64,000 nucleotides of DNA from Actinomycetota bacterium (GTDB lineage Bacteria; Actinomycetota; Geothermincolia; Geothermincolales; RBG-13-55-18): the NCBI GenBank assembly GCA_014360685.1, contig JACIXB010000017.1, positions 62,001-126,000 on the forward strand, read 5' to 3'. The translations under genes were made by a program, and so were the position numbers. Below, one piece after another: positions 7,922-23,634 of this stretch. The notes beneath the pieces are model-generated. The model did no database searches, was not told the origin of the DNA, and worked only from the letters and a program-made list of their open reading frames with translations. Every line of letters starts with the position of its first letter. The first letter of the stretch is position 1.

Positions 7922-8407
7922 TTAAACGTTTGCGGCTTCCCCGGGATTCTTCTTGCCCCTTTCCCCGAACCAGGCGATGCGGGCTTCCGGGACGGCGTCG
8001 ATACGGCCGCTGTAGGGCTTGATGTCCAGGAGGGGGCTTCCGTCCAGGGCGTCCAGGCCCCGCACTGTGAGCCGGTTGCCCTCCCGGCGCAGGAGCTCCA
8101 CCACGCACAGGTTGATGGGGTTGGGGCGGGAGGGGGAGCGGCAGGCGAAAACGCCCCGCACCTCGGGCCCCCACGGGGTCACCGTCTGCAGGACGTCGCG
8201 GGAGGCTTGGGATGCCCAGTATAGGATGTAGAGGTGGCTGGCGGCTTCGACGTCCTTGAGTCCGTCCGAGTATTCCTGGAAAACCTCCACCACGCTCTCC
8301 GCCGGGGACATGCGCCCCTGAAAAGGGGTCTGGTCCATTTCCCTGTAAGGCGAATGGATGACACCTATAGGTATGAGCAGTATCTCCATGTCTTTCGTAT
8401 CTTTCAT
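7922..8407 (-). CDS. trmO: TrmO/TsaA-family methyltransferase
   Basis: A 161-residue protein of the TrmO (TsaA, YaeB) beta-barrel family. In Escherichia coli this enzyme N6-methylates t6A37 of tRNA using SAM. Family segments seen include IGVIHSPYREMDQTPFQG, FACRSPSRPNPI, and LDALDGSPLLDIKPY. It is last in the FecBCD-type transport operon, 12 bases after the ATPase stop. TrmO homologues beside metal-chelate transporters may have a role other than tRNA modification, but that is inference. ATG 8407 is favoured over GTG 8416, which has no spaced ribosome site. Confidence 0.85.
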   Translation of the reverse strand: MKDTKDMEILLIPIGVIHSPYREMDQTPFQGRMSPAESVVEVFQEYSDGLKDVEAASHLYILYWASQASRDVLQTVTPWGPEVRGVFACRSPSRPNPINLCVVELLRREGNRLTVRGLDALDGSPLLDIKPYSGRIDAVPEARIAWFGERGKKNPGEAANV

Positions 8408-8419
8408 CTCTCCCACCCC

Positions 8420-9382
8420 TCACGATTGCCGGTCCTGTTCAAAGCAGCAGCACCCCTCCGGTATGACCAGGAAACGGTCCCCGAACCTCTCCACCCTGGC
8501 CTCCACTCCGTAAGCCTCCCGGATGGTCTCCGGGTCGATGACCTCCGGGCCTCCCCACCTCAGCACGGCGCCGTCCTTGAGGACGATGAACCGGTCCGAG
8601 TAACGGAGGGCCAGGTTGAGGTCGTGGATGGCCACCAGGACGCAGATCCCCCCCGAACGCGCCTCTGCGCGCAGGATCTCCATCACCTCGGTCTGGTTGC
8701 GCAGATCGAGGTTGTTGGTGGGTTCGTCCAGGAGCAGGATGCGGGGCTCCTGGGCCAGGGCGCGGGCGATGACCACCTTCTGCATCTCCCCCCCGCTGAG
8801 CTCGTCGGTGTAGCGAAGGGCGAGGTGGGCAAGACCCAGGCGGTGGAGGATGGCCTCCACCGCCTCCAGGTCCGCCGTTTCCACCCCCCAGCTCACGTGC
8901 GGCTTCCTTCCTAAAAGGACGGCGTCGAAGACGGTCAGCCGGTGGTACCCGTCGGCGCGCTGGGGTACGTAGCCCGCCTTTCTGGCCAGCTCCGGGGGCT
9001 TGAGCCGGGACAGGGGTTCACCCTCCACGAGTATGGCTCCTTCCCGGGGCTTGAGCAGGCGTAGTAGGCACTTGAGAAGCGTGCTCTTCCCCGCCCCGTT
9101 GTTGCCCAGCACGGAGCAGACCTCCCCGGGCCGCAGCGTGAAGCTCACCCCGCGGAGGACCTCCACCTGCGGGTAGGAGAAAGAAACCCCCTCCACCCTT
9201 AAGGCGGCGCCATCCCGCGAGGGCTCGTTGCCCGCCCGCGCCGTGGCTGGAGCGGGCGAGTCCTTCCCCGCCCCCCTTAAGATTCCCCCGCGCTTTCCGG
9301 TTCTCTCCGCCCTTTCCTGGCCTCTCCTTCCGTAAAGCCATTCTTTGCCATGTCTTACCAATACATCGGGAAACCTCCCCAT
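8420..9382 (-). CDS. FecE/BtuD-type ABC transporter ATPase
   Basis: A 320-residue ATPase for a metal-chelate (siderophore, haem, corrinoid or metal) importer. The N-terminal 75 residues are a charged, low-conservation extension. The ATPase proper starts at RVEGVSFSYPQ, with Walker A GNNGAGKST, signature LSGGEMQKV, Walker B ILLLDEPTNNLD and the switch histidine in AIHDLN. The C-terminus ends in a cluster GCCCFEQ. ATG 9382 has GGAGGTGAGG just upstream, overlapping the end of the permease gene by spacing of eight bases, so the two are translationally linked. Confidence 0.9.
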   Translation of the reverse strand: MGRFPDVLVRHGKEWLYGRRGQERAERTGKRGGILRGAGKDSPAPATARAGNEPSRDGAALRVEGVSFSYPQVEVLRGVSFTLRPGEVCSVLGNNGAGKSTLLKCLLRLLKPREGAILVEGEPLSRLKPPELARKAGYVPQRADGYHRLTVFDAVLLGRKPHVSWGVETADLEAVEAILHRLGLAHLALRYTDELSGGEMQKVVIARALAQEPRILLLDEPTNNLDLRNQTEVMEILRAEARSGGICVLVAIHDLNLALRYSDRFIVLKDGAVLRWGGPEVIDPETIREAYGVEARVERFGDRFLVIPEGCCCFEQDRQS

Positions 9383-9390
9383 ATCCCACC

Positions 9391-10512
9391 TCACCTCCGG
9401 TATCCCCTGACCAGCAGGTAGATGAAGAGGGGCGCCCCCATGAAGGAGGTGATGGCCCCCACGGGCAGGACCACCGGGGCGATGATGGTGCGCCCGATGG
9501 TGTCCGAGGCCAGGAGGAGGAAGGACCCCGCGGCTACCGACCCCGGCACCAGGTATCGGTAATCGCCCCCGATGACCCGGCGCATGAGGTGGGGCGCCAC
9601 CAGCCCCACGAAGGCGATGATCCCCAGGAAGGCCACGCACACCGCGGCCAGCAGCGAGGCCAGGAACATCCCCGCCAGGCGGAGGCGGTTCACGTTCACC
9701 CCCAGGGTCCGGGCCGTCTCGTCACCCGCGGCCAGGGCGTTGAGGCTCCAGCGCCGGGCGATGAAAAAGGCGACCACGGGGAGGGTGACCCCGGCGATGA
9801 TCGCCAGTTCCTTCCAGGAAGCCCGGCCCAGGTCTCCAAAGGTCCAGAAGACCACCGAGGCCACCTGCACGTCGCTGGCGAAGTACTGGGTGATGATGGT
9901 GCCGGCGGAGAAGAGGGCACCCATGGCGATACCGGCCAGGATCATGGCCTCGGGGGTCATTCCCCTGGCCCGGGCCATGCCCAGGACGACGAGGGTGGTG
10001 AGGATGGCCCCCAGGAAGGCGAAGACGGTGACCACGTAGGGGTTGTTGATCCACACCGCGTCCAAGGTGGTGCTCTGGGTGGTCCCGGCTCCCAGGACCA
10101 CGATGGCCACCGCCGCCCCGAAGGCAGCCCCCTGCGAGATTCCCAGCGTGTAATCGGAGGCCAGGGGATTCACCAGCAGGTTCTGCATCACGCAGCCGGA
10201 AAGGGAGAGGGCCGCGCCGGCCAGGAGGGCGGCGAGGACGCGCGGTAGGCGGATGTGGAGGACGATGCGCGAAGCGGTGGCGTCCGCCCTGCCCAGGAGA
10301 GTACGGATCACCTCGAGGGGGGAGAGGCCGGCCGAGCCGAGGCCCATGGCGATGATGGCTAGGGCTGCCGAGCCCAGGGCCACGAGCATGATGACCAGGG
10401 CCTTCCTCCTCGCGTACCTCCGGTAGATGGCGATGGGAGCCGAAGTGCCGCTCCCCACCGCCGGGTCCCTCTTTCGCCACCGGGTTTCCCACCGGCCTCG
10501 TTCTGCTTCCAC
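9391..10512 (-). CDS. FecCD/BtuC-type ABC transporter permease
   Basis: A 373-residue polytopic permease of the FecCD family with about ten membrane segments. Typical stretches are RLPRVLAALLAGAALSLSGCVMQNLLVNPLA (quoted in part: RLPRVLAALLAGAALSLSGC), DYTLGISQGAAFGAA, FWTFGDLGRASW and FVGLVAPHLMRR. It would form the homodimeric channel for the ligand delivered by the lipoprotein encoded upstream. The start is GTG 10512 with GGGAG nine bases before it. The 240 bases between it and the binding-protein gene contain a GC-rich hairpin (about 10581-10602). Confidence 0.9.
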   Translation of the reverse strand: MEAERGRWETRWRKRDPAVGSGTSAPIAIYRRYARRKALVIMLVALGSAALAIIAMGLGSAGLSPLEVIRTLLGRADATASRIVLHIRLPRVLAALLAGAALSLSGCVMQNLLVNPLASDYTLGISQGAAFGAAVAIVVLGAGTTQSTTLDAVWINNPYVVTVFAFLGAILTTLVVLGMARARGMTPEAMILAGIAMGALFSAGTIITQYFASDVQVASVVFWTFGDLGRASWKELAIIAGVTLPVVAFFIARRWSLNALAAGDETARTLGVNVNRLRLAGMFLASLLAAVCVAFLGIIAFVGLVAPHLMRRVIGGDYRYLVPGSVAAGSFLLLASDTIGRTIIAPVVLPVGAITSFMGAPLFIYLLVRGYRR

Positions 10513-10751
10513 TTTACCCCGCTCCCGGGTGTTTCACACCACCTAACTCCCAGCCGGGCACGGAGACCGGGCGCCCCCGCGGTGCCCCCCCGGGGGGCAT
10601 ATTTCCCCGACTCCGCCTGGCATATTTCGTCCCTTGTCGCCGAAAAGTTACTTCATCAACGGGCAGGGCCTGCCCGGGGAAGGTTCTTAGGAATGGTTAG
10701 AATTACCAACCCCTGGAACTCGCCCCGGGCAGGACACCCTTCACCCCGGTA

Positions 10752-11876
10752 TCAGAATTCGAGTTTCGTGAAGCCGCCGAAGTCCCGGGCCATGTCCTCG
10801 TAGAGGCGCTTGCCCAGCAGGAACTCGTAGATTTCATCAGCTTTCTCGGCCGGGTCCACGTCCTCGAAGGCCCGGGGGAAGATGACCTTCCCCATGAAGT
10901 AGGCGTCGGCTATGGCCGTGTCCACGTTGGTGGTGTAGTAGTTGTAGGGAAGGTACCCGTAGACCCTCCCCTCCCGGAAAGCCCGCAGGGACTGGTAATA
11001 ACCGGGGTTCTTGCCGTAGTCCTCCCTGACCATGGCCAGGCCCCCCTCGTCCACGAAGATGATGTCCGGGTCCCAGGCCAGGAGCTTTTCCTTGTCGATC
11101 ATCACGCTGCCTTTCTGCCCCGTCTCGTCAGCCACGTTGACCGCCCCGACCGCGGAGAGGGGAGGAAAGTTGGCCTGGGTGCTCTCTATCCCGTGGGTGC
11201 CCTTGAAGCCTATGCCTCCGACGTAAACCCTTGGCTTCTCCTCGGCAGGGATGTCCTCCGTCCGCGAACGCAGGTCCTCCTGGCACTCCCTCACGAAATC
11301 CGCCACTTGCTCAGCCCGTTCGCGGTTCCCGGTGATCTCCCCCACCAGCCGTATGGATTCCAGGAGCTCTTCGTCGAAGGTGCCCAGCTGCCCGTAACTC
11401 AGGACCACCACCGGGATGCCCGTCTGCTGCTGCAGCTCATCCGCCTTGGCCGCGTCCACCAGGTGGGCCGCGAAGATGACCTCCGGGTCCACGCTTATCA
11501 GCTTCTCGGGGTCCGGAGAGGAGTCCGGCCCTCCCTGCCCGATGACCGGTAGCTCCTTGAGCTCGGGGTAAGCCATTATGTAGGGACGCCCCGTGGCCCA
11601 CTGCTTCTCCATGTTCTCGATGCCCACCACCTTGTCCGCGGCTCCGGCGTAGCACACCAGTCGCAGCGCGCCCGGCCCGATGGCCGCCACCCGTTCCGCC
11701 GGGACGGTCACCTCCACGCTCCTCCCGGCCAGGTCGGTCAGGGTGGTCTTCCCCGGACCGGTTCCGGTGCTTTCGCCCCCGCAACCGGGTAGGATCGCCA
11801 GGACGATCAGCGCGGCCAGGGCCAGCGAAAGCCCGGTCCAGGACATCATGCTCTTTCTCGCCCTTTTTCCAGCCAT
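10752..11876 (-). CDS. FecB/BtuF-type substrate-binding lipoprotein
   Basis: A 374-residue periplasmic-binding-type lipoprotein. A signal peptide ends in the lipobox ILPGC. Two Rossmann-like lobes follow with the typical VTVPAERVAAIGPGALRLV and DLAGRSVEV openings. The C-terminus contains YNYYTTNVDTAIADAYFMGK, seen in FecB-like proteins annotated as iron or other metal-chelate binders in anaerobes. The ligand cannot be named. ATG 11876 is preferred to ATG 11882, which abuts the GGGAGGAGG site with no spacing. Confidence 0.88.
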   Translation of the reverse strand: MAGKRARKSMMSWTGLSLALAALIVLAILPGCGGESTGTGPGKTTLTDLAGRSVEVTVPAERVAAIGPGALRLVCYAGAADKVVGIENMEKQWATGRPYIMAYPELKELPVIGQGGPDSSPDPEKLISVDPEVIFAAHLVDAAKADELQQQTGIPVVVLSYGQLGTFDEELLESIRLVGEITGNRERAEQVADFVRECQEDLRSRTEDIPAEEKPRVYVGGIGFKGTHGIESTQANFPPLSAVGAVNVADETGQKGSVMIDKEKLLAWDPDIIFVDEGGLAMVREDYGKNPGYYQSLRAFREGRVYGYLPYNYYTTNVDTAIADAYFMGKVIFPRAFEDVDPAEKADEIYEFLLGKRLYEDMARDFGGFTKLEF

Positions 11877-12165
11877 CTCCATCCTCCTCCCGATTCCGAT
11901 CCCGCCTTTCACGGATACCGGGCCCGCCTGGAAGACTTCACCGGGTGTCTCCCAGAGCCCACTGGCTGCCTGCGGGAAGTGGTGCTCCATGGGCTTCGCC
12001 GAGGTTCCAGGGGACACCGCAACACTTTCCCCGAGGATTACCGGGGGCGTTATTCGGCGCGCTCGCCTGTTTCACGCCCGACGCGCGGACCCGATGGTAG
12101 CCTGATGGCGCTCGCAGGTTTCTCCCCGGCCGTGTTAACGGGCGCACGGGGCGCGATTAGCAACG

Positions 12166-12654
12166 TCACTGTTCCGGGGACACGAGGTCCCCTTTCAGGG
12201 CGGAAACGATCTCCGCGATGGAACCCCTCACCTCCTTCGCCTCCAGGGGAGTGCCCTCCAGGTTGGCCCGGGCCACGGCCCCCATGGGGCAGGCGCAGCC
12301 CTCCATGCTGTGCTCGATCTTGCCAATTCTTACCAGGGAGAGGCCGTTCCGGGCGGACCTGCAGGACTCGGGCAGGGATTCGTGATCCAATCCTGGCTCG
12401 AAGAGGCCCATATCCTCGCCACCCGTTCCCCGCAACAAGGCCATGAGTTTTTCCCGCACCGCCGATCTCCCGCCCAGCCAGTCCATGAGGGTATGCAGGG
12501 GCTCGGGCAACCCGAGCATGGAGGGAAGGCCGAGGTTGGACTCGTCGGCGTCCACCACCAGGACCGGCGCCGACTCCCTTATCTCGAGGGCCAGCAGGCT
12601 GACCAGGGTGCTCTTGCCGCTCCCGCCGCGACCGCTCACCAGTATCTTGGGCAT
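12166..12654 (-). CDS. truncated CooC-like P-loop ATPase
   Basis: A 162-residue protein starting as a CooC/MinD-type ATPase with the deviant Walker A GRGGSGKST and VVDADESNLGL. It also has the CACPMG cysteine motif. Family members run to about 250 residues, with a VDTEAG-type Walker B after that cysteine motif. Here the protein instead ends soon after ANLEGTPLEAKEV. The ATPase should therefore lack part of its fold, so this may be a recent internal deletion. CooC proteins assist nickel insertion into CO dehydrogenase, which would fit the transport operon, but function here is doubtful. Confidence 0.65.
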   Translation of the reverse strand: MPKILVSGRGGSGKSTLVSLLALEIRESAPVLVVDADESNLGLPSMLGLPEPLHTLMDWLGGRSAVREKLMALLRGTGGEDMGLFEPGLDHESLPESCRSARNGLSLVRIGKIEHSMEGCACPMGAVARANLEGTPLEAKEVRGSIAEIVSALKGDLVSPEQ

Positions 12655-12674
12655 GTTACCTCCATTCAGGGTTT

Positions 12675-13286
12675 TTACGATGAGGCTTCACAGGGTTCCG
12701 GAGCCGTTTTACGGGCCTGGAGAAAGTAACCTTCTGCGCCGTCCCTTATGTCGATTTCCGAAAAACCCGCACCCCCGAAAAGGCGTAGCATGGCCTCCTC
12801 CCCCGGCAGCATGTCTTCTCCCACTGCACCGCCCAGGCGGCGGTGGCGGGCGTTTATGCTCTCCCGGTCCTCGGTGTGGGAGACCACCACCCGGCCCCCG
12901 GGACGGAGGACGCGGAACATCTCCCGGACCGCCCTTTCCTTGTCCCAGATGTGGGGGAAGCAGTTGTGGCACACCACCAGGTCGAAACTCTCCTCGAGGA
13001 AAGGGGTTTCGGCGATGTCCGCGTGCAAGTACTGCAGGTTGGGCCGGGTCAGCTTGCGGCGGGCGACGCGGAGCATCTCCTCGGCGATGTCCAGGGCGCA
13101 GACCGACCCCCCGGGGCCAACCGCCTCCAGCAGGTGGGGCAAGAGGACGCCGGTGCCGCATCCCACGTCCAGGACCGCGCTTCCCGGCGCGATTCCCAGG
13201 GACCTGACCATGGCGGATCCTCTCTCCCGTTCCCAGGCGTCCTGGGTGAGGTCCCAGTCGGCGGCACGGCGGTTGAAGAAATCCAT
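12675..13286 (-). CDS. class I SAM-dependent methyltransferase
   Basis: A 203-residue Rossmann methyltransferase. Motif I is VLDVGCGTGVLLPHL, an acidic loop is ALDIAEEM, motif II/III lies around ESFDLVVCHNCFPH, and the post-motif segment is FRVLRPGGRVVVSHT. The start MDFFNRRAADWD at 13286 is typical of UbiE-like methyltransferases found beside FecBCD-type transporters in anaerobes. An open frame reaches back to 13820, but it covers the hairpin-rich leader and shows no conserved sequence. It is first in the minus-strand operon, 20 bases before the CooC-like gene. Confidence 0.85.
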   Translation of the reverse strand: MDFFNRRAADWDLTQDAWERERGSAMVRSLGIAPGSAVLDVGCGTGVLLPHLLEAVGPGGSVCALDIAEEMLRVARRKLTRPNLQYLHADIAETPFLEESFDLVVCHNCFPHIWDKERAVREMFRVLRPGGRVVVSHTEDRESINARHRRLGGAVGEDMLPGEEAMLRLFGGAGFSEIDIRDGAEGYFLQARKTAPEPCEASS

Positions 13287-13783
13287 TATCTCTAGCGCAT
13301 GTATCTCAGGTCGGGAGCCCGGCCCGCGCGGGGGCAGGTCATGTGGCCCCTCCTCGAACGTGGGACGGGGCGGCGCGGCCGCCGAATCGTGAGCCACGCC
13401 CGGGGAGAGGTTGAGGCATCCTCCCTCGCACCGCATGGAATGCGTCCCGCCAGACAAAAAGCCGGACCTTTCGGCGCTTCCCATGGTGCAGGCCGTATCC
13501 AGGGCGGCTCCGGGGTATGGGTCAGCCGAAAGAGCATACCTTTCGTTGCACCCTATCCCTTCGCGTCTCTTGAGCTGGCCCTCCCATGCCTGCGAGGCCT
13601 TTTCGGTTGTGATGCCCGTTGGTGCCGCTGATCCCCGGCCGCAAGCGCCGTCAACACCCGCCGTCGCTCCACGCCGGAGCCCTTGGTAGGCGGCGTTCTC
13701 CCCGGTCGAAGCCTCTCCCGGGGGGATCACTCGGGCATCCACGCAGTCCGTCACCTCCATTTGAGGCGGATTCATCCGTTCCC
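13287..13783 (-). other. structured 500-base untranslated stretch upstream of the methyltransferase
   Basis: No gene is recognised here. On the minus strand, GGTGCA (13552-13547) can pair with TGCACC (13490-13485) to enclose two hairpins (CGAAAG/CTTTCG at 13545-13527 and GGCT/AGCC at 13527-13506). A weak hairpin with a T5 tail (about 13477-13456) follows. This resembles a three-way-junction leader but could be chance in GC-rich DNA. I could not match it to a named riboswitch. Confidence 0.3.
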
Positions 13784-13893
13784 GAAAAAAACCACGAAGG
13801 TCACCGACCTTCGTGGTCAATCCTTCCGAGTATTTCTCTCAGCCGGGCCTTACCGCCCTTTACACGGCGGCTTCCCGCCGCCTTCTTTCTCCG
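13784..13893 (-). ncRNA. short leader or small RNA ending in an intrinsic terminator
   Basis: From the predicted start near 13893 the minus-strand RNA would be about 110 nt. It would hold a GGCGGC/GCCGCC hairpin, a CGGCUGAGA segment, and a perfect 12-bp terminator stem (13817-13806 with 13802-13791). A run of seven T residues (plus-strand A run 13785-13791) follows the stem. Placed ahead of the transporter operon, it may be a riboswitch or attenuator. It could also be a free small RNA. No known riboswitch core was recognised. Confidence 0.45.
13785..13817 (-). terminator. strong intrinsic terminator in leader of transport operon
   Basis: ACCACGAAGGTC / GACCTTCGTGGT form a perfect 12-bp stem with a three-base loop, followed on the minus strand by seven T residues. 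Confidence 0.85.
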
Positions 13894-14139: not shown

Positions 14140-14174
14140 TGTGGAGGTGTCGAGGCTTGACAACCGTATAACAC

Positions 14175-14338
14175 GCCGGCCGGGTTCGCGAGATTAAAAG
14201 GGAAGTCGGTGAGAGTCCGACACGGTAGCGCCGCTGTGACCGGGGAGCGAAGCCCCAGGTATCCCACTGGCGGGAGCCGGGAAGGGGGGGCGGAGCGGTG
14301 ATCCGGAAGTCAGAAGACCTGCCCGGCATGGGTCAGTG
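14175..14338 (+). promoter_or_regulatory. cobalamin riboswitch
   Basis: The core matches the cobalamin riboswitch consensus: AAAAGGGAAGTCGGTGAGAG, then GTCCGACACGGTAGCGCCGC and TGTGACC, a GCCCC hairpin, CCACTGG, GGGAAGG, and the B12 box AGTCAGAAGACCTGCC (14309-14324 region). The outer P1 can form from GCCGG near 14175 and CCGGC near 14333. A terminator follows at 14375-14408, so adenosyl- or methyl-cobalamin binding probably shuts off transcription of the downstream secreted protein and possibly the ECF operon. Confidence 0.95.
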
Positions 14339-14374
14339 AGCTCTCCGCCTTAGAGAGAATCTGACGGATGTGCC

Positions 14375-14408
14375 ATCTCCTCTCTCGAAGCGAGAGAGGA
14401 GATTTTTT
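14375..14408 (+). terminator. riboswitch expression-platform terminator
   Basis: A perfect 13-bp stem (ATCTCCTCTCTCG / CGAGAGAGGAGAT) with an AAG loop is followed by six T residues. GAGCTCTCCGCCTTAGAGAG just upstream can compete for part of the stem and may act as the antiterminator. Confidence 0.9.
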
Positions 14409-14409
14409 G

Positions 14410-14827
14410 TCTTCCGGAGGCTCGCGCGGTGATCTGTCGATCCGCGTTGGATGAGCGTGGTGTGCGGGGATCCCAGGGTTGGATTCCTCGGGTATTTTCG
14501 GCGAGGACCGCGTCGTCGGGAGATGGAGGCGGAAGGGGTCGAGCGAGGTCGGGGAGGGCCGGTCCTCAAGTGTTGTTCGACGTGGCTCCGCCACCATGAC
14601 CTGGACTCTGACATTGAGTGGATGGGGTGGGGCTTGGAGAGGGTTTTCGGTAAGGGACCGGCGGCCGCCGAGAAGTGCGGGAAAGGAGAGACGGCTTATG
14701 GCGGTGGCGGAAAGGAGAAACGGTGTATGACCTTGGGATGAAAGCTGTAAGGGCGATGGAGCAGGGGAAAAGGCGGACTCCTGATCTATCCGGCGGCATG
14801 GGACTGGTAGGTATGGAGGAGGCTGAG
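14410..14827 (+). other. long leader with two overlapping mini-ORFs
   Basis: Between the riboswitch terminator and the secreted-protein gene lie two short frames, each with an AAAGGAG site. One is MAVAERRNGV (14698-14730) and the other MTLG (14727-14741). They are joined by ATGA overlaps to each other and to an in-frame ATG at 14738 of the next gene. The sites are parts of an imperfect duplication (about 14679-14702 and 14707-14730). The rest of the stretch holds no gene I recognise. Confidence 0.45.
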
Positions 14828-17146
14828 ATGAGAGGTTGGACGCTGAAACGGGGGTTCGACGGCAAAAGCTCGGAGGCGCGTTTTCCGGCGGGGAAGAGAC
14901 GCAAAACGGCGATGAGAAAAGGGATATCGATCTTCTCCTGCGCCCTTCTTTTCCCGGCCCTTTTGGCCCTCTCCTTTATTTTTCCAGGGGCGTTAGGGCT
15001 CCGGGCCCAAAAAGCCCTTGCGCAGCCCGGGGAGCTTATATTGGAGAGCGACGACTACGACATCAAGGACGGCACCGCCCCCACTCTGGTTGGGGGGGTG
15101 GCCTACCTCTTCGCCGGGGATGACCCCTGGGCTCCCCCCTACGTGAACAGCAAGGTGGTGGCCCTGGACGCCTCCGACGGCCGACTTCTGTGGGAAAGCG
15201 AGCTGGAATGGGCGGGGGGCATGGGTTCCAAGGCCCGCCCCCTGGTGGACTCGGGTCGGCTCTACATCGGCTGCGGCAAGTCCGTCTACTGCTTGGACAC
15301 GGTGGATGGGAACGTGGTCTGGGCCACGGATATCACCCCGGAAGAAGGACAGGTTGACTCCGTGATCATCACCGACCCGGTGATGTACGCCAACGCCTCC
15401 GGGAAGAAGGTGGTAGTGGGCGATTACATCCACGGCGCTTACGTGGGGCTGGACGCGTCGGACGGCACCATCCTCTGGCGGTATCCTCTGGACGCCAACA
15501 CCTCGGCCATCGGGACCCCCGGCGTCGACGACGCCAACGACCGTCTCTACCTTCCCCAGCATACCTCCTTCGGGTTCCCGGCCAACGGGAAGGTGCACTG
15601 CGTGGACGTCTCGGGGGATGCGCCGGTAAAGGAGTGGGAATACAAGACCTCCTACGACGTGGCCGGGGGGATAGCCGTGCACCAGGGACTCCTCTTTTTC
15701 AGCGACTTCGCCTACGGGGGGGAGAAGAGCAAGCTCTACTGCCTGGAGGACGGGGGCAATACCTCCTCCCTCCAATGGAGCGTGGAGGTGTGGGGATCCT
15801 CCGGCACGCCCCTGGTGAACCCCGAGGGAGAGGTGGTCTACATCTGCGGGAACGACTATTCCGTAGGAGGGAACCACTTCTACGCCTACGGCATGACCAC
15901 CGGGAACCTCATCTGGGACAACCCCAACTGGGGAGCCTACAACGGCAACTGTGCCCTCTCACCGGATACCGGATACCTGTACGCCGGGAGCTTCGACACC
16001 TCGGCCTGGGCGCACAACAAGGGCCTGGCGGCCCTGGATCCTCTGACCGGGAGCGAGCTGTGGTACGTGACGGAGAAGGGCGGGGGGGACCCGGTGGTGG
16101 TGGACGGCGTGGTTTACAGTACCGCCGACGGCAAACTTTACGCCTACCAAGAGTACCTCCCCTCCAGCTTCGACTGGTACTTCGCCGAGGGCTACACCGG
16201 CGAGGGCTTCGACGAATTCCTGTGCCTGGCCAACCCAGGGACTGCTCCGGACGACGACGCCCAGGTCAGCCTGACTTACGTCTTCAACGGGGATAGGACC
16301 CCGTTGACCAGGGAATTCGAGGTCCCCGCCGGCACCCGGGCCACGGTTTACGTGAACGAAGACGTGGGGGAGGACATGGAGGTCTCCGTGAGGGTGGTCT
16401 CCGACAGACCCCTGGTGGCCGAGCGCCCGGTGTACTTCGACTACCGGGGGACGGCGGGCCGCAACTGGACGGGCGGCCACTGCGTGGTGGGAGCCGACGC
16501 CCCATCCAAGACCTGGTACTTCGCCGAGGGGTACACCGGGGAGGGCTTCGAGGAGTACCTCACTCTGGCCAACATGAACGACGATGAGGTGACGGTGGAA
16601 GTCACCTACCTCTACAACGGCGAGGACCCGGTGACCAAGCCCTACGTGGTGGAGGCCGACTCCCGCCGCACCCTGAATGTCAACCTGGAGGCGGGTTCGG
16701 GAAAGGAACTGGGCATCAAGGTGGATAGCGACCTCCCCATCCTGGCCGAGCGCCCCGTGTACTTCAGCTACGGCAGCGGGTGGAACGGAGGTTCCTGCGT
16801 GATGGGTGCACGGATGGCCGCCAACTTCTGGTGCCTGGCCGAGGGTTACACCGACTCCAATTTCGACGAGTACGTATGCATATCCAACCCGGGGAAGGAG
16901 GACGCCCAGGTGACCGGCGTGCCCCTTTTCGGAGGGGGCGAGCCCTTCGAATTGACGGTGGAGGCGGGCAGGAGGCGGACGGTGGTCCTCCACAGCGACC
17001 AGGGCGTGGAGCGGGCGTACGCCGTATATTCCGACCGGGGCGTGGTGGTGGAGCGGGCCATGTACTTCGATTACCGGGGATTCGCGGCCCACGACTGGGA
17101 TGGCGGTCACTGCACCCTGGTCGCCGCCTTGAGGGACATTTACTGA
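14828..17146 (+). CDS. secreted PQQ-like beta-propeller protein with three C-terminal repeats
   Basis: About 772 residues. A basic N-region and hydrophobic signal segment (GISIFSCALLFPALLALSF) suggest export. Residues about 60-445 are a PQQ/WD-like beta-propeller with repeated SKVVALDASDGRLLW-type blades. Three tandem units of about 110 residues follow at 447, 561 and 666, each opening with WYFAEGYTGEGF or a close form and containing AERPVYFDY. No enzyme residues are evident. Start 14828 is chosen for GGAGGAGG at 14815-14822. ATG 14738, coupled to a mini-ORF, is possible. Lying downstream of a cobalamin riboswitch, it may be a surface component of B12 capture (inference). Confidence 0.85.
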   Translation: MRGWTLKRGFDGKSSEARFPAGKRRKTAMRKGISIFSCALLFPALLALSFIFPGALGLRAQKALAQPGELILESDDYDIKDGTAPTLVGGVAYLFAGDDPWAPPYVNSKVVALDASDGRLLWESELEWAGGMGSKARPLVDSGRLYIGCGKSVYCLDTVDGNVVWATDITPEEGQVDSVIITDPVMYANASGKKVVVGDYIHGAYVGLDASDGTILWRYPLDANTSAIGTPGVDDANDRLYLPQHTSFGFPANGKVHCVDVSGDAPVKEWEYKTSYDVAGGIAVHQGLLFFSDFAYGGEKSKLYCLEDGGNTSSLQWSVEVWGSSGTPLVNPEGEVVYICGNDYSVGGNHFYAYGMTTGNLIWDNPNWGAYNGNCALSPDTGYLYAGSFDTSAWAHNKGLAALDPLTGSELWYVTEKGGGDPVVVDGVVYSTADGKLYAYQEYLPSSFDWYFAEGYTGEGFDEFLCLANPGTAPDDDAQVSLTYVFNGDRTPLTREFEVPAGTRATVYVNEDVGEDMEVSVRVVSDRPLVAERPVYFDYRGTAGRNWTGGHCVVGADAPSKTWYFAEGYTGEGFEEYLTLANMNDDEVTVEVTYLYNGEDPVTKPYVVEADSRRTLNVNLEAGSGKELGIKVDSDLPILAERPVYFSYGSGWNGGSCVMGARMAANFWCLAEGYTDSNFDEYVCISNPGKEDAQVTGVPLFGGGEPFELTVEAGRRRTVVLHSDQGVERAYAVYSDRGVVVERAMYFDYRGFAAHDWDGGHCTLVAALRDIY

Positions 17147-17737
17147 TCGGAACTGGGACAGGGCAATAATGGAAGAATATGGTAAGATAATCCGAAACCG
17201 ACGATCGGGTGGGAGATGCGGCCTTCGGCGGATGGGCCCTTCCCCTCCTGGTTGCGGAGGCGGGGTTATGAAAGGCGGGTGATACCGGGAGCTTGGCCGG
17301 GCAACCGGGATTGGATGAAACGGCGATAGTTACCATCAAGGCTCCTTGCGGTCGACCACCTGGCGGGCAGGAGGGCGTTGGTCCTCCTGCCCGAGCCCCT
17401 GTCGCGAGGAGGGGGGATGAGAGGGGTTTTTTCGGGGAAGAGCCGCTCTGCGAGCGGCGGGAATACCTTCGACGAAGGGTTGGGGACCACACCGACGTCA
17501 AAGCCGGTTTTAAACGTAGTGGGGTTGACGCCGGAGAGGGGAGGTTGGTGGCCCGGCATCCTTGGCCGGCTGAGGTCGGCCTTGGGGGAGCGGGAGGGAG
17601 CGCGGATGAGTGCGGAAAAACGGCATGAAATCGTAAGCCCGCAATGCCCGCACTGGCGGACATCCCATTTTATGGAATAGATTTCCAGGGATAAGGCCTA
17701 TACCGGTCGAACGGGTCGTTAAGAGGTCAGGAGAGAG
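17147..17737 (+). other. 590-base intergenic stretch with hairpins
   Basis: A perfect 10-bp hairpin (GGGCAGGAGG 17365-17374 with CCTCCTGCCC 17383-17392) is followed about 35 bases later by GGGGTTTTTT. This suggests a terminator or partial terminator after the propeller gene. GCCGCTCTGCGAGCGGC forms another hairpin near 17446. No second riboswitch core or gene was recognised, so it is unclear whether the ECF operon is cotranscribed with the riboswitch. Confidence 0.5.
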
Positions 17738-18748
17738 ATGGTGGACGGGAAAGAGGGAAGGCTCAGGCGGAGGCCCAAGTGGCTGGAGGCCGCGGCCCTC
17801 TCCCTGGCCGCGCTGGTGGCCTTCTTCCTGGTCAGGGGATGCGCCTTCATGCCCTGGAACCGTTCCGGCCCGGAAAGTGAGGTGAGGGTCACCGTCACCC
17901 GCGATTTCGGGACCGTCGTCCTCAAGGACGAGCTGGTCCGGCTGGAAAGGGGCGGCAGCGCCATGGACGCCCTGCGCGAGGCGGCGGAGGTGGAGACGAC
18001 CTACGGCGGGGGTTTCATCCAGGGCGTCGACGGCCTGCGTTCCCGCTACGATTCCGCCCTCGGCGGGGGGGAGAAGGTGGACTGGTTCTTCTACGTGAAC
18101 GGGCACCTGGCGGACGTGGGAGCCGGTTCCTACGAGGCCGGGGAGGGTGACTGGCTGATCTTCGACTATCACCGGTGGGACTATTCCGCTTTCACCCCTT
18201 TCCTGGCCGGTTGCCTCACCCAGGCTTTAAACAGGGGCTACGGGGGCGCGGTACCGGCGAAGGTGGCCGTGCTCCATGCCCCGGGCGCCGCGGCGCAGGC
18301 GGAGGAGGTGGCGGGCCTTCTGCGCGCCAACGGCTCGGCGTGCGAGACCCTGCTCCTGGAGGAGAGTTGGACGCCCCGCGCCGGCGAGTACGCGGTTCTG
18401 GTGGGCATATGGAAGGAGTTGGCAAACAACGCCTACCTCCGCGAGGCGCTGTCCAATGCCTCCCGACTGGGACTATTCGCCTACGTGGAGGGAGGCGCCG
18501 TGAGGTTGGTCGGTCCCGGGGGTGAGGTGGCCAAAACCCTCGGCGAGAACGCCGGGGTGCTGGAGGCCACGGGTCCCCGCCTGGGTGACGGCCGCTCCGC
18601 TTTCCTGGTATGCGGGCTGGACGAGGCGGGCCTGGATGCGGCCGTGGAGGCGCTGCGGAGGGTGCTGGCGGAGCAGTGCAGGCCGGTCGCCGTCCTGGTG
18701 GCGGTGGCGGGGGAAGAGCCGTTGGCGGTGCCGGGGGAGGTGAAATGA
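17738..18748 (+). CDS. membrane-anchored DUF4430 protein (transcobalamin beta-domain-like)
   Basis: A 336-residue protein. One N-terminal membrane segment (residues about 18-34) precedes an extracytoplasmic DUF4430 domain (about 50-150) with GGGFIQGVDGLRSRYD, WFFYVNGHLADVGAGSY and GDWLIFDY. DUF4430 is the fold of the C-terminal beta domain of transcobalamin and intrinsic factor. Residues about 165-330 are a second alpha/beta domain I do not recognise. The start has AGGAG just upstream. It opens an operon of ECF transporter genes, with the EcfT start two bases after its stop, so a role as corrinoid-capturing partner is a reasonable inference. Confidence 0.8.
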   Translation: MVDGKEGRLRRRPKWLEAAALSLAALVAFFLVRGCAFMPWNRSGPESEVRVTVTRDFGTVVLKDELVRLERGGSAMDALREAAEVETTYGGGFIQGVDGLRSRYDSALGGGEKVDWFFYVNGHLADVGAGSYEAGEGDWLIFDYHRWDYSAFTPFLAGCLTQALNRGYGGAVPAKVAVLHAPGAAAQAEEVAGLLRANGSACETLLLEESWTPRAGEYAVLVGIWKELANNAYLREALSNASRLGLFAYVEGGAVRLVGPGGEVAKTLGENAGVLEATGPRLGDGRSAFLVCGLDEAGLDAAVEALRRVLAEQCRPVAVLVAVAGEEPLAVPGEVK

Positions 18749-18749
18749 G

Positions 18750-19670
18750 GTGAAGCTGATCCCCGTGTACCGGCCCCGGGAAACTTTTATCCACGGTTTG
18801 CACCCCTTGGCTGCCCTGGCGCTCTATGCGTCCCTGGTGGCCGTGGTCCTGGTGCTCCAAAACCCGCTTTACCTGGCGGTATGCGGGCTGGGTGTCCTTT
18901 CCCTGGTCCTCCTGGCGGAGGCCGGGGAGGAATGCCGGCCCTTCCTGCTGCTGGGGATGTTCATGGCCTTCCTGGTGGCCCTGCTCAATCCCCTGGTCAA
19001 CCGGCAGGGAGGACACGTCCTGGTCTACGGACCCCGGCTCCCGGTCCTCGGCCGCCTGGACGTCACCCTGGAGGCCGTGGCCTACGGAGCGGTGTCCGGT
19101 TTCCGCATTCTCCTGGTGGTAGTCCTGTTCGGGCTGGCGAGCGTCACCGTGAGCCCCGATGACCTGCTGGATATCCTTTCCAGGATATCCTTGCGCTCCT
19201 CCCTCTCCGCCGCCCTGGCAGTCCGCCTCTATCCCAGCCTGGTGGTGGAGGCGCGGGAGATGACCGAGGTCCAGCTGGCGCGAGGCGAGCGGCTGCGGGG
19301 CGGGCGCCGGTGGCAAAGGGCGAGGGCGCATTTCCCCCTCTGGATGGCCCTTTTCCGGGGTTCCCTTGACCGGGCGGCGAACATAGCGGAGGCCATGAGC
19401 GCGCGGGGTTTCGGGAGCGGGAGGGTCACCAGGCGCCGGCTCCCCTTGAAGGGAAGGGACCTCGTCGTCCTGCCCCTCTCCCTGGCGGTGGCGGCGGCGG
19501 CCGTATTCTCCTCCACGGGTGGGGGGGGTTACCGGTATTTCCCCCTCCTGGACAATCCCCTCGCCGGTTTTCGCACATGGGCCACGGTGTCCCTGGCCGG
19601 TTTTTTCGCCCTGCTGCAGGTTATTGGAAGGTGTTGGAAGAAATGGCCCTGGTGGAGATCTCGGATCTGA
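18750..19670 (+). CDS. ecfT: ECF transporter T component
   Basis: A 306-residue CbiQ/EcfT-family membrane protein with about five to six membrane segments. The two coupling-helix Ala-Arg-Gly motifs, which contact the ATPases, are seen as LARGERLRGG and SARGFGSG. It starts at GTG 18750 with GGGGGAGG ten bases before. The 3' end overlaps the ATPase gene by 28 bases. With the neighbouring ATPase and S component it completes an energy-coupling-factor importer. Confidence 0.92.
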   Translation: MKLIPVYRPRETFIHGLHPLAALALYASLVAVVLVLQNPLYLAVCGLGVLSLVLLAEAGEECRPFLLLGMFMAFLVALLNPLVNRQGGHVLVYGPRLPVLGRLDVTLEAVAYGAVSGFRILLVVVLFGLASVTVSPDDLLDILSRISLRSSLSAALAVRLYPSLVVEAREMTEVQLARGERLRGGRRWQRARAHFPLWMALFRGSLDRAANIAEAMSARGFGSGRVTRRRLPLKGRDLVVLPLSLAVAAAAVFSSTGGGGYRYFPLLDNPLAGFRTWATVSLAGFFALLQVIGRCWKKWPWWRSRI

Positions 19671-21397
19671 CCTACTGGTATCCCCGCGGGGAGAAACCCG
19701 CCCTCAGGGAATTGAGCCTCAGGGTGGAGAAGGGGGAGTTCGTGCTCCTCACCGGCCCCACGGGGTGCGGGAAGACCACCTTCATGCGGCTCCTAAACGG
19801 CCTGGTCCCCCATTTCCACGGCGGGGTCCTACAAGGGAGGGCGCTGGTGTGCGGCATGGACGTGGTGGCCTCCGGGCCGCGGGCCCTTTCCTCCCGCGTG
19901 GGAATGGTCTTCCAGGATCCCGAGGACCAGCTGGTGAGCACCACGGTGGAGAGGGAGGTGGCCTTCGGCCTGGAGAACGCCAGACTGCCCGCCCCGGTGA
20001 TCTCCAAGCGAGTGGAGGAGATGCTCGCCGGGATGGGGCTTTCCCGCTTGCGGCGGTCCTTCCTGCCCGAGCTGTCCGGGGGGGAGGCCCAGAAAGTGGT
20101 CCTGGCTTCCATCCTGGCCCTCCACCCGGAGGTCCTGGTGCTCGACGAGCCGACCTCGCAACTGGATCCCCTGAGCTCCGAGGAGCTGCTTACCTTGGTA
20201 AGGCGCATCCACGAGGAGACGGGGACCACGGTGATCATGTCCGAGCACCGGTTGGAGAGGTGCTTTCACTACGCCACCCGGGTGATCCACATGGAGGAGG
20301 GCAGGATCTGCTTCGACGGCTCCCCCGCCCAGGCGGCGCGGTGGTGGGGACCACGCGAGGGAGCCTTCCTCCCCCCCGTCGCCCGGGTCTTCGCCCGGGC
20401 GGGCTGGGAAGAGATACCCCTGACCGTGAACCAGGCGAGGCGTTTGATACACGGATTGGAATCGCGCGGGTCAGGTAAAGTGGAGGTTCCGGGGGGGAGG
20501 AGGGAAGGCACTCCCCGGGGCGGACCGCTGGTGGAAGCCAGGGACCTCTGGTACGTCTACCCCGAGGGCCCGGAGGCCCTGCGGGGCGTGGACCTGCGCC
20601 TGGAGAGGGGCAGGAACCTGGTGATCATGGGGGAAAACGGGTCCGGAAAGAGTACCCTTTTACGCTGCTTCCTGGGCCTGCTTCCCCCCACCCGCGGAAG
20701 GGTGCTGCTCCTGGGGGAGAGGCCGAGCCGGGAGAGGCTGCCCGGGCTGGCCGCCCGCCTGGCTTACTGTCCCCAGAACCCGAACGCCTTTTTCCTCTCC
20801 CCTACCGTGCGGGAGGAGATGCTTCGCACCCTGAGACTCCGCGGTTACCGCGGCGACGCGGAGGAGGCGGTGAGGCGGCAGTTGGACCGCTTCGGGCTGG
20901 AGGGTACGGAGGAACGGGATCCCCGCGACCTGAGCAGCGGCCAGAAGGAAAAGCTGGTCCTGGCCTGCGCCCTCCTGCCGCCCGTGCCGGAGCTCCTGGT
21001 CCTGGACGAACCCACCCGCGGATTGGATTACGGCAGCAAAAGGGAAATAATGGAAATCATCAAGGAGTACGGGGACGGGGGAAGCACGGTGGCGGCGGTC
21101 ACCCACGACGTGGAGTTCGCCGCCGCCCTGGCAGACGAGGCGGCCATCATGGGCAACGGAAAGTCCATCGTGAACGGGGCGGCGGAGGACATGCTCAGCG
21201 ACTCCCTCTTCTTCTCCCCCCAGGTGAACCGGCTTTTAAACCACCTCTTCCCGGGTCTGATCCGCGAGGAGGAGGCGGTGGCCGTCCTGGAGGGGATGCG
21301 CGAGAGGATGGCCGCGGGGAAGGAGAGGCAAAGCGGGGAGGCGGCCTCGGCTTGCTCCCGGGCCACGGTTGCCTCCGCGAGAGGGTCGCGCCGATGA
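19643..21397 (+). CDS. ecfA: ECF transporter double ATPase (EcfA-EcfA' fusion)
   Basis: A 584-residue fusion of two ABC ATPase domains. Domain 1 has GPTGCGKTT (about 38), LSGGEAQKV (about 143) and VLVLDEPTSQLD (about 165). Domain 2 has GENGSGKST (about 331), LSSGQKEKL (about 429) and LLVLDEPTRGLD (about 451). The fused form replaces separate EcfA1/A2 subunits. The start MALVEISDLTYWY overlaps the ecfT end. The stop overlaps the next start as ATGA, which implies translational coupling. Confidence 0.93.
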   Translation: MALVEISDLTYWYPRGEKPALRELSLRVEKGEFVLLTGPTGCGKTTFMRLLNGLVPHFHGGVLQGRALVCGMDVVASGPRALSSRVGMVFQDPEDQLVSTTVEREVAFGLENARLPAPVISKRVEEMLAGMGLSRLRRSFLPELSGGEAQKVVLASILALHPEVLVLDEPTSQLDPLSSEELLTLVRRIHEETGTTVIMSEHRLERCFHYATRVIHMEEGRICFDGSPAQAARWWGPREGAFLPPVARVFARAGWEEIPLTVNQARRLIHGLESRGSGKVEVPGGRREGTPRGGPLVEARDLWYVYPEGPEALRGVDLRLERGRNLVIMGENGSGKSTLLRCFLGLLPPTRGRVLLLGERPSRERLPGLAARLAYCPQNPNAFFLSPTVREEMLRTLRLRGYRGDAEEAVRRQLDRFGLEGTEERDPRDLSSGQKEKLVLACALLPPVPELLVLDEPTRGLDYGSKREIMEIIKEYGDGGSTVAAVTHDVEFAAALADEAAIMGNGKSIVNGAAEDMLSDSLFFSPQVNRLLNHLFPGLIREEEAVAVLEGMRERMAAGKERQSGEAASACSRATVASARGSRR

Positions 21398-22209
21398 AGG
21401 AATCGAGGGAGAGCCGCGTGGACGGAAACGTGCCGGGAAGAGGAAGTACGTTCGGGCAGTGGGTCCCGCGGGCCCTGCGCCGCCTCCTTACGGCTTGCAT
21501 GTTCGCCTTTATCTTCCTGGGAATAAGGGGCGTCGCTCCCTTTTCCCGCTGGTCCCTGAACTCCCTTTTCCTGGCCCTCGTCCTTTTGGTTATACTCTTC
21601 CTGCGCTTCGAGGAAAGGGAGTACGGCGCCCGCGAGGTGGCGGCGGTGGGAGCCCTGGCCGCGGTAGGGGCGGCGGGCAGGGTCTTCTTCGCCGCCCTGC
21701 CGGGGGTCCAACCGGCTACCTTCCTGGCCGTCCTGACCGGGTACGCCATGGGAGCCGAGACCGGCTTCCTGGCGGGCGCCCTCATCGCCCTTTTGAGCAA
21801 CATCTTCCTGGGGCACGGCCCCTGGACGCCCTGGCAGATGCTCGCCTGGGGCCTGGCGGGCGCCAGCGGAGGCCTGCTGGGCGCGTTTCGCCGCCCGAAG
21901 AGCCTCCTCGCCGCGGCCGCCATACTGGTCACTTCTTGGGGGTTCATTTTCGGGTGGTTGATGAACCTGTGGTTCTGGCTGTCCTTCGTGTATCCGCTGA
22001 ACTGGACCTCCTACATCGCTACCTGCTCAACCAGCTTCTGGTTCGACCTATTCCATGCCGCGGGAAACCTGGTTTTCGTGCTGGCGCTGTGGAGGCCGAT
22101 GGCCGAAATGCTGCGGCGCTACCGTGAGCGCTTCCGGTTCCGGTACCTGGGCGAGGGGAGGGAGTGGGCGAGCTCGGGCGGCGACCGGCAAGCGAGGGAA
22201 GTCGTGTAA
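21394..22209 (+). CDS. ECF transporter S component, probable corrinoid-specific
   Basis: A 271-residue membrane protein with about six to seven hydrophobic helices. It contains LPGVQPATFLAVLTGYAMG, NIFLGHGPWTPWQMLAWG and GGLLGAF, which recall CbrT-type S components proposed or shown to bind vitamin B12 in Gram-positive bacteria. The start ATG overlaps the ATPase stop (ATGA). Specificity is inferred from these motifs, from the cobalamin riboswitch upstream, and from the transcobalamin-like neighbours. Substrate binding is not proven by sequence. Confidence 0.82.
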   Translation: MKESRESRVDGNVPGRGSTFGQWVPRALRRLLTACMFAFIFLGIRGVAPFSRWSLNSLFLALVLLVILFLRFEEREYGAREVAAVGALAAVGAAGRVFFAALPGVQPATFLAVLTGYAMGAETGFLAGALIALLSNIFLGHGPWTPWQMLAWGLAGASGGLLGAFRRPKSLLAAAAILVTSWGFIFGWLMNLWFWLSFVYPLNWTSYIATCSTSFWFDLFHAAGNLVFVLALWRPMAEMLRRYRERFRFRYLGEGREWASSGGDRQAREVV

Positions 22210-22236
22210 AACATTCCCATTAAGGGAGGTCCGGGA

Positions 22237-23634
22237 ATGAAATACAATAAAAGTATCGGTTCGGCTCGAGAGTGGTTTTACCGCATGGAGAGGAAAGGGA
22301 AGGGCGGCATGAAGGGCGATACGGGACAAGCGGAGAAGGAGACGCCGAAAGTGGAGGCCGGCTTTTCGAAGCGCAAGGCGCTGACCCTGGCGATGACGGC
22401 GGCCTTGTTCCTTACCCTCTTCACGGTGCCGTTTCCGGCCCGGGCGGGGACCGGGGAAGCCCTGGCCTACATCCGGGCCTGCCAGGCTCCCGACGGCGGC
22501 TTCAGCGAGCCGGGGCGGGGAGGCAACGGCCAGGACGCGACCACCGCATGGTGCATCATGGCCCTCTCCGCCGCCGGCGCGGATCCCTCATCGGTCAGGT
22601 CGCAGGGGCGTTCTCCCCTCGATTTCCTGGCCACCCAGTCAGCCAACTGGAGGAGCGTCACCGATTACGAGAGGACCCTGCTGGCCGTGGTGGCGGGCGG
22701 CGGGAATCCTTATGACTTCGCGGGCCTGGACCTGGTGGCCAAGGTCAAGTCATTTCAGAGGCCGGGAGGTAACATAGGTGACGCGGTAAACTCCAATGCC
22801 TTCGGGATCCTGGCCTACAAGGCGGCGGGGGTCGGGATCCCCCCCGGAGCGGTACAGTGGCAGAAGACGGCCCAGAACCGCGACGGGGGTTGGGGAAACA
22901 GCCCGGGTGCGGCCAGCAACCCGGACATGACCGCCGCCTCCATCATGGCTTTGCGCGCCGCGGGCGTGGACCCGAGCGACCCCTCCATCGTCTCCGCCCT
23001 TTCCTACCTCCGCTCCATCCAGAACGGGGACGGCGGTTTCGCCTTCCAGTCCGCTTCCTCCGACGTCTCGGCCACCGCGTGGTGCGTGCAGGCCCTGGTG
23101 GCCGCGGGCCAGGACCCGGCGGGCGCGGCGTGGTCGAAGAACGGGAATACGCCCTGGAGCTTCATCCTCTCCATGCAGGCCCCGGACGGCCACTTCGTGT
23201 GGATGCAGGGTCGCGACGTCAATCCCCTGTGGACTACCGCTTACGCGGTGTGCGCCCTGGCCCGCAGGCCCTACCCGGTGGCCGTGTTCCGGTCGGAGGA
23301 GAGTTCCTTCGCGGAAGGCGTGACGGCGGCGCCTCCGGCGGGCGAAGAACCTTCCGGGGCGGGGACCCCCGGCGAGGAGACGGCGACGGAAGCGGTCGGG
23401 GCCGCGCAAGGAGGGGACAGCGGGGCGGCGCCGGAGGAGCCGCCCGTGGAGGAAGCGGCGGGGAACGAAGGCCGGGCGGAGACGGTGATGCCCCGCGAGG
23501 AGGGGGAGGAGAAGGGCGGCGGGGTGCACCCGGCGGCCTGGGCGGTGCCCCTGGCGGTCACGGCGCTCCTGGGCGCCGTCGCTTACTGGTATTTTATGGT
23601 AAAACGCCGCCCCGCGTCCGGGAGCAAGGGATGA
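22237..23634 (+). CDS. exported alpha/alpha-toroid protein (transcobalamin alpha-domain-like)
   Basis: A 465-residue protein. A signal segment (about 47-70, ending FPARAG) is followed by an alpha/alpha toroid with squalene-cyclase/prenyltransferase-type repeats: QAPDGGFSEPG, QNRDGGWGNSPG, QNGDGGFAF, QAPDGHFVW. An acidic Pro/Glu-rich linker (about 360-430) and a C-terminal membrane anchor ending in KRRPASGSKG complete it. No cyclase DXDD motif is present, so it is probably a binding protein. The alpha domain of intrinsic factor and transcobalamin has this fold. GGGAGG at 22224-22229 serves ATG 22237. It is last in the ECF operon. Confidence 0.82.
   Translation: MKYNKSIGSAREWFYRMERKGKGGMKGDTGQAEKETPKVEAGFSKRKALTLAMTAALFLTLFTVPFPARAGTGEALAYIRACQAPDGGFSEPGRGGNGQDATTAWCIMALSAAGADPSSVRSQGRSPLDFLATQSANWRSVTDYERTLLAVVAGGGNPYDFAGLDLVAKVKSFQRPGGNIGDAVNSNAFGILAYKAAGVGIPPGAVQWQKTAQNRDGGWGNSPGAASNPDMTAASIMALRAAGVDPSDPSIVSALSYLRSIQNGDGGFAFQSASSDVSATAWCVQALVAAGQDPAGAAWSKNGNTPWSFILSMQAPDGHFVWMQGRDVNPLWTTAYAVCALARRPYPVAVFRSEESSFAEGVTAAPPAGEEPSGAGTPGEETATEAVGAAQGGDSGAAPEEPPVEEAAGNEGRAETVMPREEGEEKGGGVHPAAWAVPLAVTALLGAVAYWYFMVKRRPASGSKG

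Follow-up and report, generated by a model that had tools for sequence, protein, structure and literature searches.

A conserved riboswitch-led operon in Geothermincolia encodes a dedicated ECF transporter and three predicted surface proteins, likely for corrinoid scavenging

The region described here lies in a 64,000-nucleotide stretch of DNA (contig JACIXB010000017.1 of assembly GCA_014360685.1), which is referred to in its full length as the window. We place it in the actinobacterial class Geothermincolia, its nearest named relatives being Candidatus Solincola and Candidatus Geothermincola. Six genes were found on one strand, encoding in order a propeller protein, a DUF4430 protein, EcfT, a fused EcfAA', an S component and a toroid protein, and a cobalamin riboswitch with an intrinsic terminator lies ahead of them (Table 1). 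The original prediction, which was made from the sequence, had placed such a riboswitch and terminator in front of a secreted propeller gene, and both were detected there, with the one correction that the aptamer begins 10 bases earlier than had been thought. It is the sole cobalamin riboswitch detected in the organism's own genome, the assembly of which is 79.57% complete. The propeller open reading frame extends further upstream than its likely start codon, which was chosen as it fits a signal peptide. From DUF4430 onward the genes abut or overlap, with open reading frame ends at most 28 bases apart, and the DUF4430-through-toroid genes are therefore almost certainly carried on a single transcript. 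The predicted order of these five genes was confirmed, mostly by Pfam, with the S component scoring below the cut-off of its Pfam family (ECF_trnsprt). EcfT and two EcfA ATPase domains are encoded together, as expected of a member of the ECF transporters. A divergent cluster on the minus strand (7922-13820) adjoins the operon and encodes a SAM methyltransferase, a MinD/CooC-like ATPase, a FecB-FecCD-FecE importer and a TrmO_N protein; in several relatives, strong FecCD matches were observed on the same contig as the operon.

Table 1. Positions in the window of the riboswitch, the six genes and the associated RNA elements.
Feature	Position	Strand	Evidence and remarks
Cobalamin riboswitch aptamer (RF00174)	14165..14340	+	cmscan 106.9 bits (gathering score 31.5), E 8.5e-26, model 1-189 of 189
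Intrinsic terminator, riboswitch expression platform	14375..14409	+	Terminator scan (14375-14403, strong) and sequence; 13-bp stem, T-tail
Secreted PQQ/BamB-type beta-propeller protein with DUF5719-like repeats	14912..17146	+	PQQ_2 86.5 bits, DUF5719 32.2 bits; ORF opens 14675
Genus-restricted conserved structured element, containing hairpin 17365-17392	17331..17402	+	No T-tail
Membrane-anchored DUF4430 (transcobalamin beta-domain-like) protein with C-terminal alpha/beta domain (Dc)	17738..18748	+	PF14478 48.1 bits (cut-off 23.8)
EcfT (CbiQ family), transmembrane coupling subunit	18750..19670	+	PF02361 65 bits
Fused EcfA-EcfA' ATPases	19577..21397	+	Two ABC_tran domains in one chain; TIGR04520 333.6 bits; likely start 19643
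S component, CbrT (B12) type	21394..22209	+	phmmer to 6fnp_A, E 5.1e-15; ORF opens 21352; likely start codon (ATG, 21394) overlapping the stop codon of EcfA
Secreted alpha/alpha-toroid protein with C-terminal membrane anchor	22237..23634	+	PF00432 42 bits

The arrangement is not peculiar to the window. The order riboswitch, propeller, DUF4430, EcfT, EcfAA', S component and toroid is kept across the class at protein identities of ~30-80%, and because the identical order recurs among proteins that have diverged to this extent, the operon is far beyond what chance would produce. The riboswitch was found immediately 5' of the propeller gene, both in the window and in all 14 further class genomes in which the 5' flank is intact. 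Outside the class, 73 loci with a CbrT-type S component (Bacillota, Chloroflexota, Thermoplasmatota and others) were surveyed for related genes: DUF4430 is present at 62 of them, a toroid at 53, and at 44 a protein in which toroid and DUF4430 are fused. In these loci the fused gene is typically the first behind the riboswitch, and after it come a gene for a stand-alone DUF4430-Dc protein, the ECF genes and often a gene for a separate toroid; the riboswitch was located 5' of the fused gene in eight Bacillota-type loci.

An earlier caution was that control by the riboswitch may stop short of the ECF genes. The window does have a gap of 591 bases between the propeller and DUF4430 genes (17147-17737), whereas in most of the other loci of the class it spans 0-216 bases. 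The strong hairpin in this gap counts against control of the whole set. We considered the hairpin as an intrinsic terminator and rejected this, as there is no T-run behind it, and a plain terminator is unlikely. That most relatives have short gaps, and that the hairpin lacks a U-tract, weakens the earlier caution, and the riboswitch probably governs the whole six-gene set. The hairpin belongs to an element of ~70 bases with compensatory changes in three main-stem pairs among four sequences (the loci considered besides the window were L132, L133, L134 and L052). This element could possibly act as a stabilizer, a processing site or an attenuator. No Rfam family matched in the gap above its gathering score, and a match that starts at the hairpin, to a Brucella sRNA, fell below that score and was discarded.

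The S component bears on what the transporter carries. When its sequence was compared with those in the PDB (phmmer, E up to 10), the sole match was 6fnp_A, the CbrT subunit of ECF-CbrT, so that an S component of some other vitamin family, which would have spoken against the original prediction, was not what we found. CbrT has been shown experimentally to transport both B12 and cobinamide (PMC5997447). An alignment of 19 members of the S-component family contained 22 invariant columns. Ahead of the CbrT-like core the window protein has an N-terminal hydrophobic extension (21394-21640), with 6fnp_A aligning at residues 91-261 of 285. One related S-component gene (L036:12137-12916, genome G069) was observed to contain in-frame stops, which may reflect an assembly error or a decaying gene.

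The host appears to depend on corrinoids it does not make. CbiD, a marker of corrin synthesis, was present in two class genomes and absent from 29 of 31 (raw counts, shared ancestry included), and none was found in the organism's own, incomplete genome, which has 16 matches to B12-binding domains; the host is apparently unable to make the corrin core of vitamin B12. The FecBCD importer encoded nearby counts against corrinoid uptake by the ECF system. Several near-complete DUF4430-bearing class genomes had no strong FecCD match, however, and because of this the ECF system may be the sole corrinoid importer in them. Overall, we consider it likely that the operon serves to scavenge corrinoids (the vitamin B12 family), as a riboswitch-controlled set of six genes for surface capture and ECF import. 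An alternative is that the imported ligand is a different corrinoid-like compound or tetrapyrrole, such as cobinamide or some other precursor, with cobalamin acting as a regulatory signal only. This would be in keeping with the binding of cobinamide by CbrT (PMC5997447), and a reviewer of the 2007 paper discussed below cautioned that the ligands of the DUF4430 clade may be diverse (PMC1796856). CobS, which is needed to finish precursors, was detected in 16 of the 31 class genomes, among them all but one of the eight without DUF4430 and nine of the 23 with it (raw counts, shared ancestry included); the nine speak for such a ligand. In the other 14 DUF4430-bearing genomes, including the incomplete one from which the window comes, CobS was not detected, and these would require cobamides in complete form. 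This, together with the match of the S component to the B12 family only, makes a different ligand unlikely.

Among the proteins predicted to lie outside the membrane, the DUF4430 protein resembles known B12 carriers in fold. Its AlphaFold2 model has a mean pLDDT of 90.4, and a Foldseek search placed 5no0, the human transcobalamin beta domain, at the top (E 2.5e-5; TM-score 0.71 by target), followed by haptocorrin, transcobalamin and intrinsic factor, so the model bears out the predicted resemblance to a transcobalamin domain. Weaker fold matches were also seen to BcsB and to GH84/GH115 glycosidases. That the link to transcobalamin rests on structure follows from the failure of the full-length DUF4430 profile to reach transcobalamin among PDB sequences. 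The protein has an N-terminal hydrophobic segment with a conserved GC at its end.

The same expectation was only partly upheld for the toroid protein. Its Pfam matches are to Prenyltrans/SQHop, and the core of its model, with pLDDT above 90, has the toroid fold as predicted. A specific likeness to the toroid of transcobalamin, in sequence or in fold, was not recovered among the matches listed: the 50 PDB matches that Foldseek listed are terpene cyclases and prenyltransferases, with squalene-hopene cyclases closest, and transcobalamin is not among them. Likewise, the eukaryotic cobalamin-binding Pfam family matched neither the window toroid nor 10 relatives. These structures could be taken to mean that the toroid acts as a terpene cyclase- or prenyltransferase-type enzyme and not as a ligand-binding domain, particularly as the DxDDT motif is present in 7 of 18 class toroids and 12 of 35 other stand-alone toroids. 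The window copy, however, reads NPDMT at the position of the DxDD catalytic motif of class II terpene cyclases. It has a signal sequence and a C-terminal hydrophobic membrane segment, and would thus be secreted and anchored, and it is locked into a B12 operon. As toroid-bearing relatives have SLH, LPXTG or copper-amine-oxidase-N-type domains in place of this segment, the predicted surface location is conserved even though the anchors vary. The SLH and cell-wall domains also argue against an enzyme of this kind, and we regard such a function as very improbable.

The DUF4430 and toroid proteins are not, as had been suggested, the halves of a split transcobalamin. Unlike transcobalamin, in which toroid and beta domain share one chain, the two are encoded by separate open reading frames in the window. 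In Bacillota and Chloroflexota a stand-alone DUF4430 protein, often with a stand-alone toroid, occurs beside a separate fused toroid-DUF4430 protein, and because of this coexistence we rejected a fusion that was broken in Geothermincolia. The counterparts of the two window proteins are the stand-alone proteins encoded in the Bacillota operons. Among 17 class loci inspected, none encodes a fused toroid-DUF4430 protein, and every class genome with DUF4430 has the domain exactly once. Geothermincolia thus appear to lack the fused gene, with the propeller gene filling its slot behind the riboswitch.

The C-terminal half of the propeller protein, with its DUF5719-like repeats, represents a generic surface module: 20-71 matches to the protein were counted in each class genome (G000 and others), and in the eight class genomes without DUF4430 the best matches span just these generic C-terminal repeats. 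The propeller and DUF4430 were found together in all 23 DUF4430-bearing class genomes (G199 included; raw counts, shared ancestry included). Judged from the genome sequences, the propeller belongs to the conserved unit and is no bystander. Associations of the same kind were observed in archaea. Two DHVE2 loci (L109:4733-6223 and L130:10592-12535) encode a DUF4430-PQQ propeller fusion directly after the CbrT-type S gene, and in a Thermoplasmatota locus (L089) a propeller gene lies immediately before DUF4430. At L130, a second PQQ propeller gene adjoins the fusion. A Clostridium protein that joins a propeller to a transcobalamin-like domain was noted as a single case in 2007 (PMC1796856). Based on the co-occurrence with DUF4430, the archaeal fusions, the adjacency at L089 and the Clostridium precedent, we infer that the propeller takes a working part in capture, either as a binding partner or as a scaffold.

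It is quite possible that corrinoid import is correct but that the propeller has only the transcript in common with the system and is otherwise a generic protein of the envelope or of adhesion, leaving the ligand to DUF4430 and the toroid alone. In favour of this, the BamB/PQQ propeller fold is very common and the DUF5719-like half is abundant across the class. That the propeller half is tied to the presence of DUF4430 across the class is harder to reconcile with this, as are the position of the gene as the first behind a B12 riboswitch and the recurrence of archaeal propellers beside or fused to DUF4430. Returning to a working role in capture, we propose tentatively that the PQQ propeller itself captures corrinoid, replacing the fused toroid-DUF4430 receptor in Geothermincolia and partnering DUF4430 in some archaea. 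If this is true, the operon would encode a three-part surface B12 receptor for the ECF transporters of single-membrane cells, and the propeller would be a functional counterpart of BtuG of Bacteroides.

For the operon as a whole, we envisage that low intracellular cobalamin would allow transcription to pass the riboswitch terminator, leading to expression of the six genes. The propeller, DUF4430 and toroid proteins would be located on the external surface of the single membrane, where DUF4430 and the toroid would capture corrinoid roughly in the manner of the two transcobalamin domains. The propeller would be a further surface part that assembles with them, as a corrinoid-binding partner of DUF4430 or as a scaffold. 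Corrinoid would then be handed over to the CbrT-type S component, which the dedicated EcfT-EcfAA' module would topple and power inward. The earlier proposal of a surface pair that captures corrinoid and feeds the ECF complex was right in kind, but it took the pair to be split and left out the propeller.

The central idea has in fact been known in kind since 2007, when Burroughs et al. delineated the transcobalamin-like (SLBB) clade and suggested that it functions in B12 scavenging; they described bacterial members that are fused to alpha/alpha toroids, as well as operons in which the clade occurs together with CbiO- and CbiQ-like genes (PMC1796856). The holding of corrinoid at the surface for the ECF importers of single-membrane bacteria that lack a BtuF-type protein has been predicted since that time. 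The window shares with those operons a DUF4430-type domain with a signal peptide, an alpha/alpha-toroid partner, a CbiO-like ATPase, a CbiQ-like membrane protein and the predicted scavenging of B12. It differs in that toroid and DUF4430 are separate and there is no fused protein, whereas the toroid was fused to SLBB in the 2007 examples, and in having a PQQ propeller in the first slot; a CbrT-type S component and a B12 riboswitch are also identified here. New here is a conserved variant in which a propeller is a third candidate surface part. The literature searched, from which many subscription journals were absent, yielded no study that tests experimentally whether a bacterial DUF4430 protein takes part in B12 uptake. 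The operon isolates the riboswitch, a dedicated ECF module, DUF4430, the toroid and the propeller, so that each is testable alone.

Comparison with characterized systems showed both similarities and departures. ECF-CbrT of Lactobacillus delbrueckii (6fnp; PMC5997447) likewise combines a CbrT-type S component with EcfT and EcfA/A', but its CbrT is encoded in an nrdJ-cbrS-cbrT-pduO cluster, whereas the window has a dedicated ECF module with fused ATPases, an S component that is longer at the N-terminus and surface proteins encoded alongside. BtuG is also a surface beta-propeller encoded with a B12 transporter (PMC6143338, PMC10404256). The window propeller had no sequence likeness to it, with only BamB chains matched in a PDB search (E up to 0.01), its B12 role is that of a candidate, and it accompanies a single-membrane ECF system, in contrast to the TonB-dependent BtuB that BtuG serves. 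The animal carriers transcobalamin, intrinsic factor and haptocorrin share with the operon the beta-grasp fold of their C-terminal domain, as detected by Foldseek, and the presence of an alpha/alpha-toroid. In the window, however, these are two separate membrane-anchored proteins, the DUF4430 protein has the extra Dc domain, the toroid is nearer to terpene cyclases, and a bacterial importer takes the place of endocytosis. In bacteria the parts are found joined in one protein as well as apart, beside the same kind of transporter, and for this reason these operons bear on the proposed bacterial origin of the animal B12 carriers.
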